DNA of 64,000 nt from positions 2,852,001 to 2,916,000 of the forward strand of contig NZ_CP095045.1 of NCBI RefSeq assembly GCF_022919155.1, given 5' to 3'. The position numbers and the translations under genes were made by a program. Positions 15,415 to 24,550 of this stretch are shown here, piece after piece (positions within the stretch are counted from its first letter, which is position 1; each line of letters starts with the position of its first letter). This DNA comes from Leucobacter allii. GTDB lineage: Bacteria > Actinomycetota > Actinomycetes > Actinomycetales > Microbacteriaceae. Under the pieces are notes generated by a model, which saw only the letters and a program-made list of their open reading frames with translations, did no database searches and was not told the DNA's origin.

Positions 15415-16317
15415 CTACTTCAGACCGGAGCGCACGAAGGCGTCGACCACGTAGCGCTGCAGGAAGACGTAGATGAGGAAGATGGGCAGGCAGGCGAGCG
15501 CCGAGGCCGCCATGACCGCGCCCCAGTTGTTGCCCTCCGCCCCGAGGAAGCTGCGGACGCCGACCTGGATGATGTCGTTCGACTTCTGCATGATGAGCGA
15601 GGGCCACAGGTACTCGTTCCACGCGTTGATGAAGAGCATGATCGCGAGCGCGGCGAGGGCCGGCTTGAGGTTGGGCACGACGATCTCCCACAGCGAGCGC
15701 CAGGGGCCCCGTCCGTCCATGTCGGCGGCGTCGAGCAGCTCCTTCGGGAAGGAGTCGAGGTGCTGCTTGAGCAGCATCACCGCGAACGCCGCCGCGAGCT
15801 GCGGCACGATGACGCCCGCGACGTTGTTCAGCAGCCCCGCCTGCGAGATCAGCACGTAGTTGGGGATCATCGTGACCTGGAAGGGCACGAGCCAGGAGCC
15901 GATGAAGAGGAGGTACAGGGTCTTCTGCCCCAGGAACCGCCAGCGCGCGAAGCCGTAGGAGGCGAGGATCGCCACGAGCAGCTGCCCCGCCGCGATGGCG
16001 AGCGCCATCCCGAAGGTGTTGAGCAGCATCCGCAGGATCGGGATCGTCTCCCAGACGTACTGGAAGTTCTCGAGGCTGAACGGACCGGGCGCGAGACTCG
16101 TGGAGAGCGACTGATCCGCCGGGCGGAACGCCGTGACGAACATCCAGTAGATCGGGAAGATCGCGATGACCGCGAGCACCGTCAGGATGACGAACGCCGG
16201 GATGAGACCGAGGCGCCCGCGCGTGCGGGAGGCCGCGAGCGCGCGTTGCGCCTGCGCGATCCGCTCCGGGGAGCTCGGGACCGCCTGCTGCTGCGGGGCG
16301 ACGAGGGTGAAAGCCAT
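15415..16317 (-). CDS. carbohydrate-type ABC transporter permease, MalG/UgpE family
   Basis: 300 residues, six membrane segments. The EAA loop that docks the ATPase is KELLDAADMDGRGPWRSLWEIVVP near residue 190. It starts 30 nt after the partner permease. Last gene of the operon UgpC-binding protein-phosphatase-phosphodiesterase-permease-permease; with the partner it would import a sugar phosphate or glycerophosphodiester. Confidence 0.9.
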   Translation of the reverse strand: MAFTLVAPQQQAVPSSPERIAQAQRALAASRTRGRLGLIPAFVILTVLAVIAIFPIYWMFVTAFRPADQSLSTSLAPGPFSLENFQYVWETIPILRMLLNTFGMALAIAAGQLLVAILASYGFARWRFLGQKTLYLLFIGSWLVPFQVTMIPNYVLISQAGLLNNVAGVIVPQLAAAFAVMLLKQHLDSFPKELLDAADMDGRGPWRSLWEIVVPNLKPALAALAIMLFINAWNEYLWPSLIMQKSNDIIQVGVRSFLGAEGNNWGAVMAASALACLPIFLIYVFLQRYVVDAFVRSGLK

Positions 16318-16347: not shown

Positions 16348-17427
16348 TCAGTTGTCGTGGAAGCTCAGGCGCTCGGTGAGCTCGACGAAGAGGAGCGCCA
16401 CGAGGCCGAATGCGATGAAGAAGAGCACGCCGGCCGCAGCCGAGATGCCGGCGTCGAAGCTGCGGAAGCCGAACTCGTAGAGCAGGTAGTAGATGTTCGT
16501 CGAGGAGCCGCTCGGCCCGCCCTGGGTGATGAGGTCGATGACCGGGAAGGTCCACTGGGCCGAGAGCAGGATCGTCATGAGCGCGAGGAACACGAGCGAG
16601 GGCGAGAGCAGCGGGATGGTGATGCGCCAGAGGATCTGGCGCCGCTTCGCGCCGTCGACGCCGGCCGCGTGCTCGTAATCGGGGTTGATGCCCGCGAGCC
16701 CCGCGGAGACGACGAGCACCCCGAAGCCGAGCAGCTGCCAGCCGACGATGACCATGACCGCGATCATCGATCCTCCCGGCTCCCGGAAGACGTTGCCCAT
16801 CTCGAATCCGAGCGTGCGTGCGATCGCGGGGATCGTGCCGCCCTCTTCCGCGAACATCCAGCGCCAGATCGCGCTCGTCGCGACGGGCGTCACGAGGTAC
16901 GGCACGAAGATGAGCGCCTGGTAGACGGTCTTCGCCCGGCCGGAGACGCGCTTCGAGAGCAGGGCGAAGGCGACCGGGAGCGCGACGGACAGGATGAGGA
17001 AGGCCCCGATGTACAGCAGCGTGTTCCAGAGCGCCTGGTGCAGCTCGGGCAGCGCCAGCACCTCGGCGTAGTTGCCCATGCCGACGGGGGTCTTCGGCTG
17101 GGTCGGGATGAGGTTCCAGTCGTAGAAGGAGAGCTCGAAGGTCTGCGCGAGCGGCAGGTACGTCCAGAGGATCAGCATCGCCGTGGCCGGGAGGATGTAG
17201 AGGTACGGCGCGACGGAGAAGCGGGGCCGCGGCGCGCGGCGGCGCGCGCGCCTGCGATCCCCGGCCGGCCAGGGGGCGGTGGGCCCGGGAGCGGTGGACC
17301 CGGCGTCCGCCGGTGCGGCGTTCGCGGGCGCGGGATCTGCGGGGCCCGCGGGATCGGCGGGGCCCGCGGGATCGGCGTCGGCGGCTGCCCGGGACGGGGC
17401 TTGCTGGGGGAGAACCTCGGTGAACAA
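16348..17427 (-). CDS. carbohydrate-type ABC transporter permease, MalF/UgpA family, with a DPAGPA-repeat N-terminus
   Basis: 359 residues if started at TTG 17427; this is the only reasonable start ahead of TM1 (VAPYLYILPATAMLILWTYLPLAQTF) and lies 59 nt after the preceding stop, but its ribosome site is poor. Residues 15-60 are a Pro/Ala/Asp tract with DPAGPA repeats encoded by 18-bp units, then an Arg cluster. Six membrane segments follow, with the EAA loop EHAAGVDGAKRRQILWRITIP. Partner of the downstream permease. Confidence 0.85.
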   Translation of the reverse strand: MFTEVLPQQAPSRAAADADPAGPADPAGPADPAPANAAPADAGSTAPGPTAPWPAGDRRRARRRAPRPRFSVAPYLYILPATAMLILWTYLPLAQTFELSFYDWNLIPTQPKTPVGMGNYAEVLALPELHQALWNTLLYIGAFLILSVALPVAFALLSKRVSGRAKTVYQALIFVPYLVTPVATSAIWRWMFAEEGGTIPAIARTLGFEMGNVFREPGGSMIAVMVIVGWQLLGFGVLVVSAGLAGINPDYEHAAGVDGAKRRQILWRITIPLLSPSLVFLALMTILLSAQWTFPVIDLITQGGPSGSSTNIYYLLYEFGFRSFDAGISAAAGVLFFIAFGLVALLFVELTERLSFHDN

Positions 17428-17486: not shown

Positions 17487-18392
17487 TCAGGCGAGGGCGG
17501 GCTCGGCGGTGGCGCTGAGCGCGGCGTTGGCCTCCTCGAGCGAGAGCTGCGCGAAGGCGGCCATCTGCTCGGCGGTGACCTCGTAGACGGTCGAGAACTC
17601 GCCGATCGGGACGACGGTGTGCATGACCCGGTCGTCGTAGACGTGCACGAGGTTGAAGCCCTGCGCGCCGTTCTGCCCGCGCATCCCGCCCGCCTTGACG
17701 TTGAGATCCTGGGTGTAGCAGGTCGCGGAGGCCACCGACACGGGCACGCCGCCGATCTCGCTGAAGGTGTTGAAGTGCAGGTGCCCGCCGAGCACCGCCC
17801 GCACATCGGTGCCGCGGATCGCCTCGGCGAAGCGGGACTGCTCCCGCAGCTCGACGAACTCGATGGGCTCGAGCAGGGACGGCACCGGCGGGTGATGGAG
17901 CGCGATGATGCTGCCGTGCGGCGCCGGGGTCGCGAGTACGTCGGCGAGCCACGCGTACTGCTCGTCCGTGATCTCGCCGTGGTGCGAGCCCGGGACGGTG
18001 GAGTCGAGCGCGATGATGCGCAGACCGTTGATCTCCGTGACGTAGTCCACGCTCTCCTCCCCCGCATCGGAGTCGAGGAGCTGCGAGCGGAAGGGCGTGC
18101 GGGTGTCGTGGTTGCCCATGACCCAGATCACCTCGGCGCCGATCGCGGCGGCCGCCGGTTCGACGAGCGCGCGCAGCCGGTCGTAGGCGTCGGCGTCGCC
18201 CGTGTCGGCGAGGTCGCCCGTGAAGACGATCGCCTCGGGCCGCGCCTGCGTCTCGGCGAAGTCGCGGAAGAGCTTCTTGAGGTTCGCGTCGCTGTCGACG
18301 GAGCCGTGCAGCAGCTCGGTGCCGCCGACGAAATGGGTGTCGCTGAGGTGGAGGATGAAGTGCTCGACGGGCGGGTGCTGCGATGCCGACAT
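17487..18392 (-). CDS. 3',5'-cyclic-nucleotide phosphodiesterase-like metallophosphoesterase
   Basis: 301 residues with LSDTHF, TGDLAD, VMGNHDTR, LHHPP and GGHLHFNTF, the complete binuclear metal set of the CpdA/Rv0805 group. No signal peptide. It sits inside the Ugp-like ABC operon between a phosphatase and the permeases, so cleaving imported phosphodiesters is more plausible than cAMP turnover; inference. Paralogous in function, but only weakly similar, to the metallophosphoesterase at 14448. Confidence 0.88.
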   Translation of the reverse strand: MSASQHPPVEHFILHLSDTHFVGGTELLHGSVDSDANLKKLFRDFAETQARPEAIVFTGDLADTGDADAYDRLRALVEPAAAAIGAEVIWVMGNHDTRTPFRSQLLDSDAGEESVDYVTEINGLRIIALDSTVPGSHHGEITDEQYAWLADVLATPAPHGSIIALHHPPVPSLLEPIEFVELREQSRFAEAIRGTDVRAVLGGHLHFNTFSEIGGVPVSVASATCYTQDLNVKAGGMRGQNGAQGFNLVHVYDDRVMHTVVPIGEFSTVYEVTAEQMAAFAQLSLEEANAALSATAEPALA

Positions 18393-18471: not shown

Positions 18472-19224
18472 TCAGCCGACGAGGCGATCGCGGAGCCGCG
18501 CGAGCGCGGCCGCGTCGAAGCCGTGGGCGAGGAGCATCCGCTCGGCGCCGCCGTGCAGCTCCTCGATGAGGTCGAGCGCCTCGGCGATGAGCGCGGCGGG
18601 GCTCGACGCGACGAGCTCCCGCACGCTCTCCGGGGCCACGCCGTGCTGAGCGGTGAAGCTCGCGAGCATCGCCTCGGCCCACTCCCCCGCGAGATGCGTC
18701 TCGCTCGCGACGTAGTCGGCGACGATCTGCTCGCGGGGCACTCCCACGACGCTCAGCGTGGTGGCGATGACCATACCGGTGCGGTCCTTGCCCGCGGTGC
18801 AGTTCACGAGCACGCCGCCCTCGGGCGCGTCGGCGATGCGCCGCACGGCTCCCGTGAGCGCGACCACGCGGTCCGTCGCGATGCTGCGGTAGATCTCCGC
18901 GAGCGACGGCGCCGCGCCGATCTGCGGGATCGCGGCGCCCGCGAAGATCGGGTGATGCACCGTTTCCACGAGCGCCGGAGGCACGGCGCTCGGGGCGCGG
19001 CCGAGTTCCGCGTCGTCGCGCAGATCCACGATGCGCACGATCCCCTGCGCGGCGAGCTCGCGTGCGCCGTCGGCGTCGACGCGGTGCAGGGCGTCCGAGC
19101 GGAAGAGGCTCCCGGGGCGGATCGCGCCGGAGACCGCGGGGTAGCCTGCCGCGCTGCGGAGGTTGTAGGTTCCGGCGATCGGGATCCGTGCGCCGGCCCG
19201 AGCGCTCGAGGCGAGCGATTCCAT
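18472..19224 (-). CDS. PtpB/LipA-like tyrosine- or phosphoinositide-phosphatase
   Basis: 250 residues. N-terminal NLRSAAGYP...GSLFRSDAL is the Y_phosphatase3 signature; the P-loop is NCTAGKDRTGM with nucleophile Cys142 and Arg148. The residue before the Cys is Asn where His is usual. Family members (for example mycobacterial PtpB) dephosphorylate phosphotyrosine and phosphoinositides. In this operon, removal of phosphate from an imported phospho-compound is the likely role. Confidence 0.85.
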   Translation of the reverse strand: MESLASSARAGARIPIAGTYNLRSAAGYPAVSGAIRPGSLFRSDALHRVDADGARELAAQGIVRIVDLRDDAELGRAPSAVPPALVETVHHPIFAGAAIPQIGAAPSLAEIYRSIATDRVVALTGAVRRIADAPEGGVLVNCTAGKDRTGMVIATTLSVVGVPREQIVADYVASETHLAGEWAEAMLASFTAQHGVAPESVRELVASSPAALIAEALDLIEELHGGAERMLLAHGFDAAALARLRDRLVG

Positions 19225-19275: not shown

Positions 19276-20631
19276 TCACTCGATGAGGGCCTGGGCTCGC
19301 TCGGCGGCGTCGCGCATCGTCTCCTCGGCGGGCTCGCCGTAGAAGACCACGTTCTCGATGGCCTCTGCGAGGAGCTCGTCGACCTGGGCGTAGCTGTTGC
19401 CCGGGTAGGAGACCCAGGGCTCCAGCCGGTCGAGCTGGTCGAGGTTCGGCTGGGCGAGGGGGTTGGCCGCGAGCCAGTCCGCGAGCGCGCCGCCCTCCTC
19501 GGTGAGCGAGGGGCGCAGCGGCAGGTAGCCGATCTGGCTGGTGATGAGCTCGTAGGCGCGATCGCTCGTCATGAACTCGATGAACTCCCAGCTCGCCCGC
19601 TGCTCGGCGGGATCCTCGCTGAGCACGAAGAGCGCGGAGCCCGAGTTCGTCGGCACGGCCTCCGCGTCGCCGAATCCGGGCATCGCGGCCGCGTCCAGCG
19701 TCCAGCCGCCGGCCTCGGCGCCCTGCAGCAGCATCCCCTGCACCGCCGAGGTGGTGAGGACCATCGCGACGTCGCCCTTGGCGAGCCCTTCCATCTGGGC
19801 GGCCGCGTCCACGTTGCGCAGCACCCCGTCCTCCGTCATCCGCGCGAAGCGCTCGACCGTGTCGACGGCCTGCTCGGAGCCGAACTCGATGGTGCTGCGG
19901 TCGTCCGAGAGCACCTGGGCGCCGTTCGAGCGGAACAGTCCCTGCATGCACCAGTTGCCGCCGGTGACGACGCAGTTCACGTCGAGGGAGGGCTTGCCCG
20001 TCGCGGCCGTCACCTGCTGCGCGATCGCCTCGACGGAATCCCAGGTGCTGAAGTCGGGATCCTCGATCCCCGCCGCCGCGAGCGCATCGGCGTTGAAGAA
20101 GAGCACGGGCGTGGAGAAGACGTACGGCATGCCGATGGTCTTGCCGTCCCAGTCGGCGAGGACGCGCGCGTTCGGGTGCATCGGATGCTCGCCGCCGAAG
20201 GCCGCCTCGAGCTCCTCGGCGCTCACGATGTCGGACAGGGGCTTCGCGCCGAGCTGGGTGGCCGCGAATTCGAGTGAGTCGAAGGTGAGCTGGGCGACGT
20301 CGGGCGGGTCGCCGGCGAGCAGCTGGGTCTGCACGCTGCTCGTGTAGCTGCTGTTCGCGGCGCTCGTGCCCTGCGGCGCCTGGCCCGTCACCGAGATGTT
20401 CGGGTGCGCCGCCTCGAACTCGGCGATGAGCTGCTGCACCGTGTCGGTCCAGGCTCCGGCCTGGGAGAGGTTGTAGCTCTCGAAGACGATCTCGACCCGC
20501 TGATCGTCGCCGAGTTCGGGCGCGATCGCGGCGGCGGTCTCGCTCGCGGCGGCGCCGGGGGTGCAGGAGGCGAGGGTGAGCGCGGCCAGGGCGGCCAGGG
20601 AAGCGGCGGCGGCGAGGCGTCTCGTGCGCAT
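19276..20631 (-). CDS. extracellular solute-binding lipoprotein, UgpB-type (copy 1)
   Basis: 451 residues from ATG 20631 with AAAGGA upstream. Lipobox LTLASC^T after the signal peptide. Family SBP_bac_1: RVEIVFESYNLSQAGAWTDTVQQLIAEFEAAHPNI, a LLAGDPPDVAQL motif, and a C-terminal GYLPLRPSL block. It is a close paralogue of the protein at 22108-23466; shared blocks run the whole length. It lies after the ATPase and before the phosphatase, 98 and 51 nt apart. Confidence 0.92.
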   Translation of the reverse strand: MRTRRLAAAASLAALAALTLASCTPGAAASETAAAIAPELGDDQRVEIVFESYNLSQAGAWTDTVQQLIAEFEAAHPNISVTGQAPQGTSAANSSYTSSVQTQLLAGDPPDVAQLTFDSLEFAATQLGAKPLSDIVSAEELEAAFGGEHPMHPNARVLADWDGKTIGMPYVFSTPVLFFNADALAAAGIEDPDFSTWDSVEAIAQQVTAATGKPSLDVNCVVTGGNWCMQGLFRSNGAQVLSDDRSTIEFGSEQAVDTVERFARMTEDGVLRNVDAAAQMEGLAKGDVAMVLTTSAVQGMLLQGAEAGGWTLDAAAMPGFGDAEAVPTNSGSALFVLSEDPAEQRASWEFIEFMTSDRAYELITSQIGYLPLRPSLTEEGGALADWLAANPLAQPNLDQLDRLEPWVSYPGNSYAQVDELLAEAIENVVFYGEPAEETMRDAAERAQALIE

Positions 20632-20729: not shown

Positions 20730-21890
20730 TCAGGCGGGCTGCGGCGCCGCGGCGCGTCCGGGATCGGATTCCGCGGCGGCGAGCGCGTCGTCCTCGACCC
20801 ACTCGAGACGGCGCCCGCTCGCGCGGTCGAAGAGATGCACGCGCTCGGCCGGGGCGGCGAGCACGACGAGCTCGCCGACCGTCCACCGCGTCGCGCGGTC
20901 GCAGGACACCGTGACGCGGTGCTCCCCGATCGTGCAGTGCACCAGCTGCTCGCGGCCGAGGTTCTCGACGAGCGCCACCGCGCCCCGCAGGGCGATGCCG
21001 GCCGTCGGCACCGCCTCGGGAGCCCCGCCGGCGTGGATGCTCAGGTGCTCCGGCCGCACCCCCGCCACGACCTCGCGGTCGGGCGTCGCGCCCGCCCACA
21101 GCACGGCCTCGAGCCCGGGGGCGAAGACCGACACCCGGCCGTCCGTGGTGGTGAGCGTCGCCTCCATGAGGTTCATCGCGGGCGAGCCGAGGAAGCCGGC
21201 GGCGAAGACCGAGCTCGGCGCGTCGTAGAGCTCCTCGGGCGTGCCGTACTGCTCGAGCCTGCCGGCGTTGAGCAGCGCGATCTTCGTCGCCATCGTCATG
21301 GCCTCCACCTGATCGTGGGTGACGTAGACGAAGGTGGCCCCGAGCTTGCGGTGCAGCGCGGCGAGCTCCTGACGGGTGGCGGTGCGCAGCTTCGCGTCGA
21401 GGTTCGAGAGCGGCTCGTCCATGAGGAAGGCCCGCGGCTCGCGCACGAGGGCGCGCGCCACGGCGACGCGCTGGCGCTGGCCGCCGGAGAGCTCCTTCGG
21501 CTTGCGATCGAGCAGGTGCGCGATCTCGACGGACTCGGCAGCCGCTCGGACGCGCTCGGCGATCTCGGCCTTCGGCGTCTTCTGGACCTTCAGCGGGAAG
21601 GCGAGGTTCTTCTCCACGCTCAGGTGCGGGTAGAGCGCGTAGCTCTGGAAGACCATGGCGAGGTCGCGCTTGCGGGCCGGGAGACCCGTGATGTCGGTCT
21701 CGCCGATCCTGATCGAACCGTCCGTCGGCTCGAGCAGGCCGGCGATCATGCGCAGCAGCGTCGTCTTCCCGCACCCGGAGGGCCCGAGCAGCACCAGGAA
21801 ATCGCCGTCCGCGACATCGAGCGAGATGCGATCGACGGCGGTGACGTCGCCGAACGCGCGGGTGATCTGATCGAGTACGAGCCGGGCCAC
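20730..21890 (-). CDS. ABC transporter ATPase, UgpC/MsmK family
   Basis: 386 residues from GTG 21890, chosen for GGGAGGT five nt upstream. Walker A GPSGCGKTT, Q-loop FQSYALYPHLSV, signature LSGGQRQR, Walker B FLMDEPLSNLD, then a C-terminal TOBE domain (VRPEHLSI). These ATPases energise MalFG/UgpAE-type permeases and can serve several importers. First gene of its transcript, behind PHO-like box A. Confidence 0.93.
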   Translation of the reverse strand: MARLVLDQITRAFGDVTAVDRISLDVADGDFLVLLGPSGCGKTTLLRMIAGLLEPTDGSIRIGETDITGLPARKRDLAMVFQSYALYPHLSVEKNLAFPLKVQKTPKAEIAERVRAAAESVEIAHLLDRKPKELSGGQRQRVAVARALVREPRAFLMDEPLSNLDAKLRTATRQELAALHRKLGATFVYVTHDQVEAMTMATKIALLNAGRLEQYGTPEELYDAPSSVFAAGFLGSPAMNLMEATLTTTDGRVSVFAPGLEAVLWAGATPDREVVAGVRPEHLSIHAGGAPEAVPTAGIALRGAVALVENLGREQLVHCTIGEHRVTVSCDRATRWTVGELVVLAAPAERVHLFDRASGRRLEWVEDDALAAAESDPGRAAAPQPA

Positions 21891-21950
21891 CGGATACCTC
21901 CCAGGTAATTGCGTTTCCTCGTCTCCTGCGTTCAAGAAACGATCTGCCTC

Positions 21951-22028
21951 CAGCGTGGGCCGCCGAGATGAACCGCAGGAGACGGCCCGAGGAACGGCGG
22001 GAGCCGGGTGCGCGAACACCTCGTTCAC
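21951..22028 (-). promoter_or_regulatory. PHO-box-like repeat array A (upstream of the UgpC operon)
   Basis: On the coding (minus) strand GTTC cores occur at 22017-22014, 21995-21992 and 21973-21970, exactly 22 nt apart, in contexts GTGTTCGCG, CCGTTCCTC and CGGTTCATC. Intermediate 11-nt positions hold GGCTCC and GTCTCC. This 11-nt periodicity with GTTCAYC cores matches the direct-repeat units bound by PhoP in actinobacteria. The segment is about 75% identical to box B. Confidence 0.6.
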
Positions 22029-22050
22029 CGTCCCGGCCCGGATGACGACG

Positions 22051-22086
22051 GACGGGCGCCGCCGCCCGAGGGCGGCGACGCCCGTC
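22051..22086 (-). terminator. hairpin terminator candidate after solute-binding protein copy 2
   Basis: GACGGGCG-C-CGCCGCCC (22051-22067) pairs with GGGCGGCG-A-CGCCCGTC (22070-22086), a 16-bp stem with one mismatch. No T-run. It starts 22 nt after the stop at 22108 and separates that gene from the UgpC transcript. Confidence 0.6.
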
Positions 22087-22107
22087 GGGGGCATCGCTCG
22101 ACGGCGC

Positions 22108-23466
22108 TCAGGGCACGAGCGCCTGGGCCCGTTCCTGGGCGGCCGGCATCGTCTCGGAGGCCGGCTTGCCGTAGAAGATCGACTCCTCCGCGGCGCCGAC
22201 GTAGAGGTCGGTGATCTGCGCGTAGCTGTTGCCCGGGAAGGAGCGCGCGGGCTCCATCCGGTCGAGCTGATCGAGGTTCGGCTGCACCATGGGGATGGAC
22301 GCGGCCCAGTCGTGCAGCACGCCGCCCTCCTCCGTCAGCGCGGGTCGCAGCGGGAGGTAGCCGATCTGGCTCGTGATGAGCTCGAAGGCGCGGTCGCTCG
22401 TGAGGAAGGAGATGAGCTCCCAGGCGGCGCGCTGCTTCGCCGGGTCCTCGCTGAAGACGTAGAGCGCCGATCCCGAGTTCACGGGGACCGACTCCCCCGC
22501 GCCGTCGAAGGCGGGCAGGCCGACCGCGTCGAGCTCCCAGCCGCCGGCGTCCGAGGCCTGGATCAGCGCGCCCTGCAGCGCCGCGCTCTGGAGCAGGAAG
22601 GCGACGTCGCCCTTGGCGAGCCCCTCGTTGTGCGCCTGGGCGTCGGCGTTGCGCAGCACGCCGGACTCGTACATCTCGGCGAAGCGGTCGACCGCGCCCA
22701 CGGCTGCGTCCGAGCCGTACTCGATCGTCTGCCGATCCTCCGAGATGACGTCTCCGCCGTTGGAGAGGATGAGCGCCTGCAGGCACCACTCGCCGCTCGG
22801 GTAGAAGCAGGCGACGTCGACCGAGGGCTTGCCGGTCATCGCCGAGACCCGGGCCCCGGCCTCCTCGACCGCGTCCCACGTCGACAGGTCGGCGTCGGCC
22901 GGCACCCCGGCCTCCTCGAGCATCGTGCGGTTCACGAACAGCATCGGCGTGGAGAAGACGTAGGGCATCGCGACGGTCTGCCCCTCCCAGTCGCCGAGCA
23001 CCTTGGCCTTCGGGTGGTAGGGGTGCTCGCCCCCGAAGTGCTCCTCGACCGCCTCGTCGCCGACGATCTCGTTGAGCGGCTTGGCGCCGAGCTGGTTCAC
23101 CGCGAAGTCGAGCTGGCCGAAGCCGAGCTGCGCGACGTCGGGCGGGTCGCCCGCGAGCAGCTGGGTCTGCACGCTCGAGACGATGTCGTCGACTGCGCCG
23201 CCCTGGGGCGGCTGCGCGGTGACGGTGATGTTGGGGTGCTCCTCCTCGAACTCGGCGAGCAGCTGCTCGACGGTGTCGGTCCAGGGGCCGGCCTGGGTGA
23301 GGTTGTAGGACTCGAAGACGATCTCGACCTGCTCGTCGTCCGCGAGCTCCGGCACGACCCCCTCGGGGGAGGAGCCGGTCGCGGTGGCGGCCTGCGTGCA
23401 GGCGACCAGGGGCAGGCCGGCGATCGCGGTGATCGCGGCGGTGGCTATCAGGCGGCGCATGCGCAT
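22108..23466 (-). CDS. extracellular solute-binding lipoprotein, UgpB-type (copy 2)
   Basis: 452 residues from ATG 23466 with AAAGGA 11 nt upstream. Lipobox GLPLVAC^T. Same architecture as copy 1 and clearly its tandem paralogue (EQVEIVFESYNLTQAGPWTDTVEQLLAEFEEEHPNI; GDPPDVAQL; GYLPLRPAL; FPGNSYAQI). Its own promoter region carries box B and it is followed by a hairpin, so it looks monocistronic. The two copies may bind different ligands for one permease. Confidence 0.92.
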   Translation of the reverse strand: MRMRRLIATAAITAIAGLPLVACTQAATATGSSPEGVVPELADDEQVEIVFESYNLTQAGPWTDTVEQLLAEFEEEHPNITVTAQPPQGGAVDDIVSSVQTQLLAGDPPDVAQLGFGQLDFAVNQLGAKPLNEIVGDEAVEEHFGGEHPYHPKAKVLGDWEGQTVAMPYVFSTPMLFVNRTMLEEAGVPADADLSTWDAVEEAGARVSAMTGKPSVDVACFYPSGEWCLQALILSNGGDVISEDRQTIEYGSDAAVGAVDRFAEMYESGVLRNADAQAHNEGLAKGDVAFLLQSAALQGALIQASDAGGWELDAVGLPAFDGAGESVPVNSGSALYVFSEDPAKQRAAWELISFLTSDRAFELITSQIGYLPLRPALTEEGGVLHDWAASIPMVQPNLDQLDRMEPARSFPGNSYAQITDLYVGAAEESIFYGKPASETMPAAQERAQALVP

Positions 23467-23522
23467 GTGAGGGATGGTCCTTTCACGGTCGTGAGCGGCG
23501 CGGTGTCGGTCTCCGACTCCGC

Positions 23523-23535
23523 GAAACGGCGTTTC
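23523..23535. promoter_or_regulatory. GAAAC-N3-GTTTC inverted repeat, possible RpiR operator
   Basis: A 5+5 perfect inverted repeat (GAAACGGCGTTTC) 57 bp before the ATG of binding protein copy 2. The minus-strand 9-mer AGGAAACGC within it recurs upstream of the ATPase gene (21919-21911). Adjacent to an RpiR gene; link is inference. Confidence 0.4.
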
Positions 23536-23569
23536 CTGGATCCGGTGATCCGGGGAACCGCTCGTACTC

Positions 23570-23646
23570 AGCGTGGGCGACGCGGGTGAACCGCCGGGGG
23601 CCGCGCGGCGAACGGAGGGGACCGCCTTCGCGAACACCCGGTTCCC
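23570..23646 (-). promoter_or_regulatory. PHO-box-like repeat array B (upstream of binding protein copy 2)
   Basis: Minus-strand GTTC cores at 23635-23632, 23613-23610 and 23591-23588, exactly 22 nt apart, in GTGTTCGCG, CCGTTCGCC and CGGTTCACC; the 11-nt intermediate positions hold GGTCCCC and GGCCCCC. The last core is a full GTTCACC unit. A fourth core in the opposite orientation lies 9 bp from the first, as in box A. Confidence 0.65.
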
Positions 23647-23671: not shown

Positions 23672-24550
23672 TCAGGCGCGGTCGGGCTGCGCGACCATCA
23701 TGCGCACCTCGTCGTAGACCTCTGCCCGCGCGGCGATGGCGGTCGGCAGCGTGCCGAGCGCCGCGGCGTGCAGCGCGGAGAGCAGGAGCATCTGGACGAT
23801 GTTGCCCGTGACCGTGCTGTCGTTCCAGCGGTGGAAATCCGCGCCCGCGACGAGGGGGTAGTCGGAGAGCTCCGCGAGCTCCGACTTGCCGTAGCTCGTG
23901 ATGGCGACGACGACGGCGCCGGCCTCCTTCGCGAGCACCGCGGAGCGCAGCGTGAAGTTGTTCATGCCGCTGTCGCTGACGGCGAGGCAGACGTCGCCGG
24001 GCTTCAGCAGCTTCGCCGAGATGTGCTGCGAAATGATGTCCACGGGGCTCTCGCAGACCTTCCCGCTCGTGAGGAAGTGCAGCCCGACGGACTGCGCGGC
24101 GGCGAGCGAGGCGCCGTTGCCGACCACGAGGAGGCGGCCGCACTCCCTGATCCGGCCCGCCGCGGCGTCGAATGCCGCGAGGTCGAGGGCGCCGAGCGCG
24201 CCGCGGATCCCCTCGATCGCGCGGCTGAAGACGCCCTCGAGCGGGTGCTCGAATGCGGCGGGGACGGGGCCGTCCTGTGGCATCGCCTGGTCGCGGATCA
24301 GCAGTTCGCGCAAGCGCTGGAATCCCCCGAAGCCCATCCGCTGGCAGGCCCGGACGACCGTCGCGGGCGAGACGCCCGCGCGGGCCGCGAGCTCGGCGAC
24401 GGATGCCGCCGCCACGAAGCGGGGATCGTCGATGCAGGCCTGCGCGACGCGGCGCTCGCTGGGCACGAGCGAGGGGACGAGGGACTGCAGCATCGCGCGC
24501 GTGCCGCCGAGCGGCGGGGAGATCGTCGAGGTCATGCCTTCGATGCTCAC
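23672..24550 (-). CDS. MurR/RpiR-family regulator with SIS sugar-phosphate domain
   Basis: 292 residues from GTG 24550 (ATG 24535 is an alternative). N-terminal RpiR helix-turn-helix: ELAARAGVSPATVVRACQRMGFGGFQRLRELL. C-terminal SIS domain: residues 130-265 with LLVVGNGASLAAAQ and LAVSDSGMNNFTL. SIS domains bind phosphosugars, so the gene fits control of the neighbouring phospho-compound importer. Divergent from aspS; same strand as the importer but separated by box B. Confidence 0.9.
   Translation of the reverse strand: MSIEGMTSTISPPLGGTRAMLQSLVPSLVPSERRVAQACIDDPRFVAAASVAELAARAGVSPATVVRACQRMGFGGFQRLRELLIRDQAMPQDGPVPAAFEHPLEGVFSRAIEGIRGALGALDLAAFDAAAGRIRECGRLLVVGNGASLAAAQSVGLHFLTSGKVCESPVDIISQHISAKLLKPGDVCLAVSDSGMNNFTLRSAVLAKEAGAVVVAITSYGKSELAELSDYPLVAGADFHRWNDSTVTGNIVQMLLLSALHAAALGTLPTAIAARAEVYDEVRMMVAQPDRA

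Follow-up and report, generated by a model that had tools for sequence, protein, structure and literature searches.

The question raised by this locus is which protein reads a run of evenly spaced GTTC cores found in two promoter regions, and what the genes behind those promoters are for. The window analysed here, 64,000 nucleotides long, is part of a 3.56 Mb Leucobacter allii genome held on a single contig. Read along its minus strand, the locus contains an RpiR/SIS regulator, an array, binding protein copy 2 (SBP2), a second array, ugpC, binding protein copy 1 (SBP1), a PF13350 phosphatase, a calcineurin-like phosphodiesterase and two permeases (Table 1). Based on sequence comparison, we propose that the two arrays are very probably PHO-box operators that switch on SBP2 and the ugpC operon under phosphate starvation.

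The first-pass annotation had described three GTTC cores at exact 22-nt spacing in both promoter regions, and this description was confirmed. On the minus strand the pattern GTTC-N18-GTTC-N18-GTTC has its sole two window matches, at 22017-21970 and 23635-23588, and it was absent from all 100 dinucleotide shuffles of the window. Across the genome it gave three matches, as opposed to none for the reversed control pattern, and a chance origin of the arrays was rejected on these counts. The third genome match consists of a tandemly duplicated 22-nt unit. We interpret each array as three pairs of 11-nt units, a weak unit followed by a strong one in each pair (U0 to U5), where the weak units are a matter of interpretation and U0 is the most tentative of them. 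Units U1 to U4 match GTTCACC only in part.

Table 1. Positions of the genes and sequence elements discussed in the text, in window coordinates except where C1 is given.
Feature	Position	Strand	Remark
MurR/RpiR-family regulator, SIS domain	23672..24550	-	
PHO-box-like array before SBP2, U0-U5	23581..23646	-	
SBP2 array units	U0 23646-23636, U1 23635-23625, U3 23613-23603, U5 23591-23581	-	U5 is GTTCACC; U2 and U4 lie between
-10-like hexamer CACGCT before SBP2	23570..23575	-	
Inverted repeat GTTCCC-N16-GGAAAC before SBP2	23531..23558	-	one mismatch from the relatives' form
Binding protein copy 2 (SBP2), UgpB-like extracellular solute-binding protein	22108..23466	-	
PHO-box-like array before ugpC, six 11-nt units U0-U5	21963..22028	-	
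ugpC array, strong GTTC units	U1 22017-22007, U3 21995-21985, U5 21973-21963	-	
ugpC array, weak units	U0 22028-22018	-	U2 and U4 lie between the strong units
-10-like hexamer CACGCT before ugpC	21952..21957	-	
Inverted repeat GTTTCT-N16-GGAAAC before ugpC	21913..21940	-	one mismatch from the relatives' form
Shine-Dalgarno-like GGGAGG for ugpC	21902-21897	-	chosen by eye
ugpC-like ABC transporter ATPase	20730..21890	-	GTG start at 21890
Binding protein copy 1 (SBP1)	19276..20631	-	
PF13350 tyrosine-phosphatase-family protein (PtpB-like)	18472..19224	-	
Calcineurin-like phosphodiesterase, Rv0805-like	17487..18392	-	
Permease (BPD_transp_1)	16348..17427	-	start codon uncertain; TTG at 17427 taken
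UgpE-like permease	15415..16317	-	
PHO-like array before PIN-PhoH gene	C1:2394311-2394355		R2 match
RegX3-type protein	C1:2703474-2704160		
Orphan winged-helix regulator	C1:2522440-2522784		
GTTCACT-N4-GTTCACC before glutaredoxin-like gene	C1:577453-577477		
Third genome match to the GTTC pattern	C1:192712		

The array before ugpC is a conserved feature of the genus. Of 54 same-genus genomes, 12 (our own included) encode a homologue of the binding protein, and the ugp locus was read in 10 of the 11 others, G046 being left out as a partial match at a contig end. All ten relatives carry the array before ugpC, ungapped through five 11-nt units and with GTTCAC at U5. Strict GTTC at U1, U3 and U5 is kept in four of them, while the others present ATTC or GTTT at one core, or at two in the case of G047. 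Averaged over the ten relatives, the match to GTTCACC (of 7 positions) is 6.8, 5.0 and 4.6 at offsets 0, -22 and -44, and 2.9, 2.4 and 3.0 at -11, -33 and -55, the latter values being modestly above a background of 1.80 (sd 0.74) that itself reaches a maximum of 4.2 at the out-of-phase offset -64. The 11-nt sub-period claimed for the arrays is weak when judged by letters: the intermediate units are conserved, but in their own letters, and are only weakly GTTCACC-like. Taking a PHO box to be a set of 11-nt direct repeats with seven conserved and four less conserved positions, and GTTCACC as its actinobacterial form, the arrays display such a repeat, with strong units at 0, -22 and -44 and conserved, weaker intermediates. 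From ugpC through the second permease, all ten relatives have their genes in identical order, save that the G043 contig ends within the phosphodiesterase gene. Two further relatives came from a set of 299 genomes of the family, which includes some members of the same genus. Read by eye, G115 has GTTC and GTTCACC at 22-nt spacing ahead of ugpC, and G226 has no clear array.

These comparisons also bear on the inverted core that had been noted beside the arrays. A GAAC does lie nine bases before the first GTTC, and the two face each other in both copies, as might be expected if GAAC-N5-GTTC were an operator of the LexA (SOS) type and the remaining GTTC cores were coincidental. The Gram-positive LexA box is a conserved palindrome, GAAC-N4-GTTC. 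The spacer at our locus is five rather than four, however, and what the relatives conserve is the 22-nt direct repeat, with GAAC before the first GTTC in none of their ten promoters. GAAC is therefore not a conserved inverted element, and the LexA box was rejected as an explanation whose probability we consider negligible. In the PHO-box reading, the GAAC core falls in phase with the array as a further degenerate unit, U0.

The two promoter regions of the window align over approximately 200 nt, with the blocks GCCCACGCT and AGGAAACG common to both. This modifies the earlier suggestion that spacing is conserved while flanks differ, as the spacing is indeed kept but parts of the flanks are shared as well. 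With homologous promoter regions, and with SBP1 and SBP2 themselves paralogues of 63% identity, the resemblance between the arrays could be the functionless leftover of a promoter duplication. Against this, the array before ugpC is kept in ten relatives, and the spaced units are kept while the letters between them change. Moreover, SBP2 clusters with the single binding proteins of two relatives, G010 and G033 (tree support 100/100), and our genome seems to hold both the SBP1 and the SBP2 type. In none of the ten relatives was a further gene for a binding protein seen between those for RpiR and ugpC. The clustering implies that both types are probably old, which further counts against a mere leftover, and we regard this explanation as highly improbable.

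Sites of the same kind are predicted at core Pho genes. Our genome's pstS is preceded by GTTCACC-N4-GTTCACC without a mismatch, and of the 61 pstS loci listed in the genus, 31 were read, with 28 carrying this box with two mismatches or fewer (19 exactly); the three lacking it all come from genomes with another pstS copy. Two profiles were built, both excluding our own genome: R1, from 23 of the 27 non-own boxed pstS promoters (four near-duplicates dropped), and R2, from the ten relatives' ugpC promoters. Over the genome R2 placed the two window arrays first (51.4 and 43.5 bits, E 3.7e-13 and 1.0e-10), followed by the promoter of a PIN-PhoH protein (21.9 bits, E 5.7e-4), that of phoU (E 0.0078) and then weaker sites. 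Equally good arrays scattered over the genome, which the first-pass annotation had named as grounds for abandoning its reading, were thus sought and not encountered, although the two leading scores also reflect descent from a common ugpC promoter, making the phoH and phoU matches the more telling ones. R1 recovered pstS, then phoU (E 1.4e-4) and then a glutaredoxin-like gene (E 0.0068), and within the window gave no array match up to E 10. This result counts against the PHO-box reading. The layouts differ, the ugp promoters alternating weak and strong units where pstS presents two adjacent strong units. On the profile evidence the phoU promoter, matched by both R1 and R2, links the two layouts.

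Extending the R2 scan to the genus (E 0.02) returned the ten training promoters, four sites in our own genome and 41 other places, all of which were read: 13 lie between phoU and senX3, one lies before phoH, and 27, a point against the PHO-box reading, adjoin none of the six proteins looked for. A shorter pattern, GTTCACC-N9-YANNNT, was matched three times in the genome, in front of phoU, ppk2 and SBP2. By our estimate, approximately three would be expected by chance from composition, so the evidence lies in which genes were matched and not in their number. A looser scan for GTTCACC-N4-GTTCACC with three mismatches yielded 306 matches compared with 61 for the reversed control, and was set aside as too loose; its list also omits the exact pstS site and was not relied on. 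Taken together, sites like those of the window precede pstS and phoU and, with reservations, ppk2, where a single clear GTTCACC unit is present, and the PhoH-type gene.

The arrays also share a register with these promoters. With -10-like hexamers chosen by eye, the distance from the start of the last unit to the hexamer is 16 nt at pstS (TAACGT), at phoU (CAGACT) and at both ugpC and SBP2 (CACGCT). The -10-like TATACT of ppk2 is found at 16 nt as well, but by a pattern that itself holds the register, and hence is not independent. At the PhoH gene, TAGCGT also falls on the 11-nt comb, but the unit assigned to U5 by R2 lies 49 nt ahead of it and is not the unit adjoining the -10. A sigma-70 scan returned no promoters, with shuffles giving 0.1, so that it is of little informative value. 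Separately, the box GTTCACT-N4-GTTCACC before the glutaredoxin-like gene may be a further Pho site; this gene has no -10 in register and was not counted as a Pho member.

A plausible regulator is encoded in the genome. The RegX3-type protein matches the RegX3 structure PDB 2oqr with a phmmer E of 5.9e-91, its gene comes after a histidine kinase gene, and the senX3-regX3 pair is divergent from phoU. The PHO-box reading of the first-pass annotation is supported by the common register of the pstS and phoU units, the phoH and phoU profile matches, this regulator gene and the Ugp-type operon, from which we infer binding and a response to phosphate. In our model, each array would act as a PHO-box operator in place of the promoter -35 element. 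Low phosphate would lead the SenX3-type kinase to phosphorylate a RegX3/PhoP-type response regulator, which would bind in head-to-tail dimers, each occupying 22 nt (two helical turns) and covering a weak and a strong unit. The dimer on the last strong unit, 16 nt before the putative -10, could then hold RNA polymerase, resulting in expression of SBP2 and of the operon encoding ugpC, SBP1, the phosphatase, the phosphodiesterase and the permeases. Phosphodiesters, probably glycerophosphodiesters, would in this way be imported and broken down to phosphate.

It is conceivable that the arrays belong instead to another regulator of the same fold (MtrA-like, GlnR-like, or an orphan near pstS) that reads 11-nt direct repeats, with RegX3 playing a secondary part. 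The genome encodes several OmpR/PhoB-type regulators, among them an orphan winged-helix protein approximately 6 kb from pstS that matches the PhoB model in its DNA-binding half only and could share the sites. In Microlunatus another regulator, PolR, binds GTTCACnnnnnGTTCaC (PMC6754071). A like array nevertheless stands at phoU/senX3, the RegX3 system's own locus, both here and in the 13 genus matches mentioned above, and we consider ownership by another regulator unlikely, with the RegX3-type protein remaining the preferred candidate.

The MurR/RpiR-type regulator encoded next to the SBP2 array is a further candidate owner of the GTTC units, its gene adjoining the array at the locus in nine of the ten relatives. 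The tenth, G047, retains the array with no RpiR match at the locus, however, and these units are also present ahead of pstS and phoU, genes for which, to our knowledge, control by RpiR is not expected. A better candidate for RpiR is the inverted repeat that sits between the -10 and the start codon, within a longer palindrome. At the relatives' ugpC locus its form is GTTTCC-N16-GGAAAC, exact in five of the ten and with one mismatch in four. It is unrecognisable in G047 alone, the only relative to lack both this repeat and an RpiR match at the locus. We therefore regard RpiR as a very unlikely owner of the GTTC array. Exact copies of GTTTCC-N16-GGAAAC occur in 9 of the 54 genomes, at the ugp locus in five of these, and our own genome has no exact copy. 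The inverted repeat may represent an RpiR operator or a 5' RNA hairpin; in a test of the hairpin, covariation contributed -0.14 of -11.45 kcal/mol, and in 5 of 14 pairs both partners had changed in at least one row.

Joining the two elements, we tentatively suggest a two-input promoter, a possibility we rate somewhat below even. In this model the RegX3 array would activate transcription on phosphate starvation, while RpiR, bound to the GTTTCC-N16-GGAAAC repeat, would veto it as long as no phosphorylated sugar or glycerol compound was available, the genes so controlled forming a complete import, phosphodiesterase and phosphatase pathway.

The assignment of the gene set as a UgpB/C/E-like transporter with a phosphodiesterase, as found in the Pho regulon, is made by likeness and not by curated cut-offs. 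The ATPase scores 426.8 of 432 bits against the UgpC model, slightly below the cut-off, and the permease 153.3 of 297 bits against the UgpE model. The binding protein, whose closest named match is from Leucobacter chromiisoli (76% identity), matches PDB 6r1b, a chain named sn-glycerol-3-phosphate-binding lipoprotein UgpB, with E 1.6e-12. The phosphodiesterase matches Rv0805 with E 4e-100, and the phosphatase matches PtpB with E 4.6e-16. The E. coli ugp phosphodiesterase belongs to another family than the Rv0805-like enzyme. The operon looks like a system for phosphodiester import followed by stepwise hydrolysis, from which we infer the nature of its substrate. In all 11 genomes read, our own included, the Ugp-type operon that follows a PHO-like array includes a close homologue of Rv0805.

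The location of an Rv0805-like phosphodiesterase and a PtpB-like phosphatase in a probable phosphate-starvation operon bears on the function of both enzymes, and suggests a phosphate-scavenging role for the Rv0805-like branch. If the two-input model is correct, scavenging of phosphate from diesters, rather than cyclic-nucleotide signalling, would be the native job of that branch. More widely, our analysis offers a concrete and testable Pho gene set, comprising pstS, phoU and ugp and probably ppk2 and phoH, together with a simple rule for finding further members, namely that the last GTTCACC-like unit starts 16 nt ahead of the -10.

Our literature searches found no paper on a PHO box in Microbacteriaceae, none joining Rv0805 with ugp (papers on Rv0805 and glycerophosphodiesters do exist), and nothing usable on RpiR operators. 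The mechanism is already known, and the instance and its layout are new to the extent that these searches can tell. The closest parallel for the units is the PhoP box of Streptomyces coelicolor, which consists of GTTCACC in 11-nt units (PMC4415409). The consensus unit, the 11-nt period, the mixture of better and worse conserved units and the pstS target are all shared with our sites (PMC4415409, PMC7866108). In contrast to the S. coelicolor boxes, weak units take turns with strong ones in the ugp promoters here, so that a 22-nt period becomes visible. The controlled operon also differs, as Streptomyces is said to lack ugp (PMC7866108).

For the transporter, the nearest actinobacterial counterpart is Corynebacterium glutamicum, where phosphorylated PhoR is reported to bind the ugpAEBC promoter at repeats made of an 8-bp repeat and a 3-bp linker (PMC3353115). 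An actinobacterial ugp importer, control by phosphate starvation, an OmpR-type regulator and direct repeats of 11-nt period are thus common to the PhoRS-ugpAEBC system and to our own (PMC3353115). The repeat sequence differs, that of C. glutamicum being CCTGTGAA, and its ugp system has a glpQ-type phosphodiesterase, in contrast to the Rv0805-like and PtpB-like enzymes here. The PhoB-controlled ugpBAECQ operon of E. coli likewise has multiple pho boxes before an ABC importer for glycerophosphodiesters and glycerol-3-phosphate that is accompanied by a phosphodiesterase gene (PMC4415409, PMC10294691). From that operon our locus differs in its unit sequence, its gene order and the RpiR regulator that stands alongside it.
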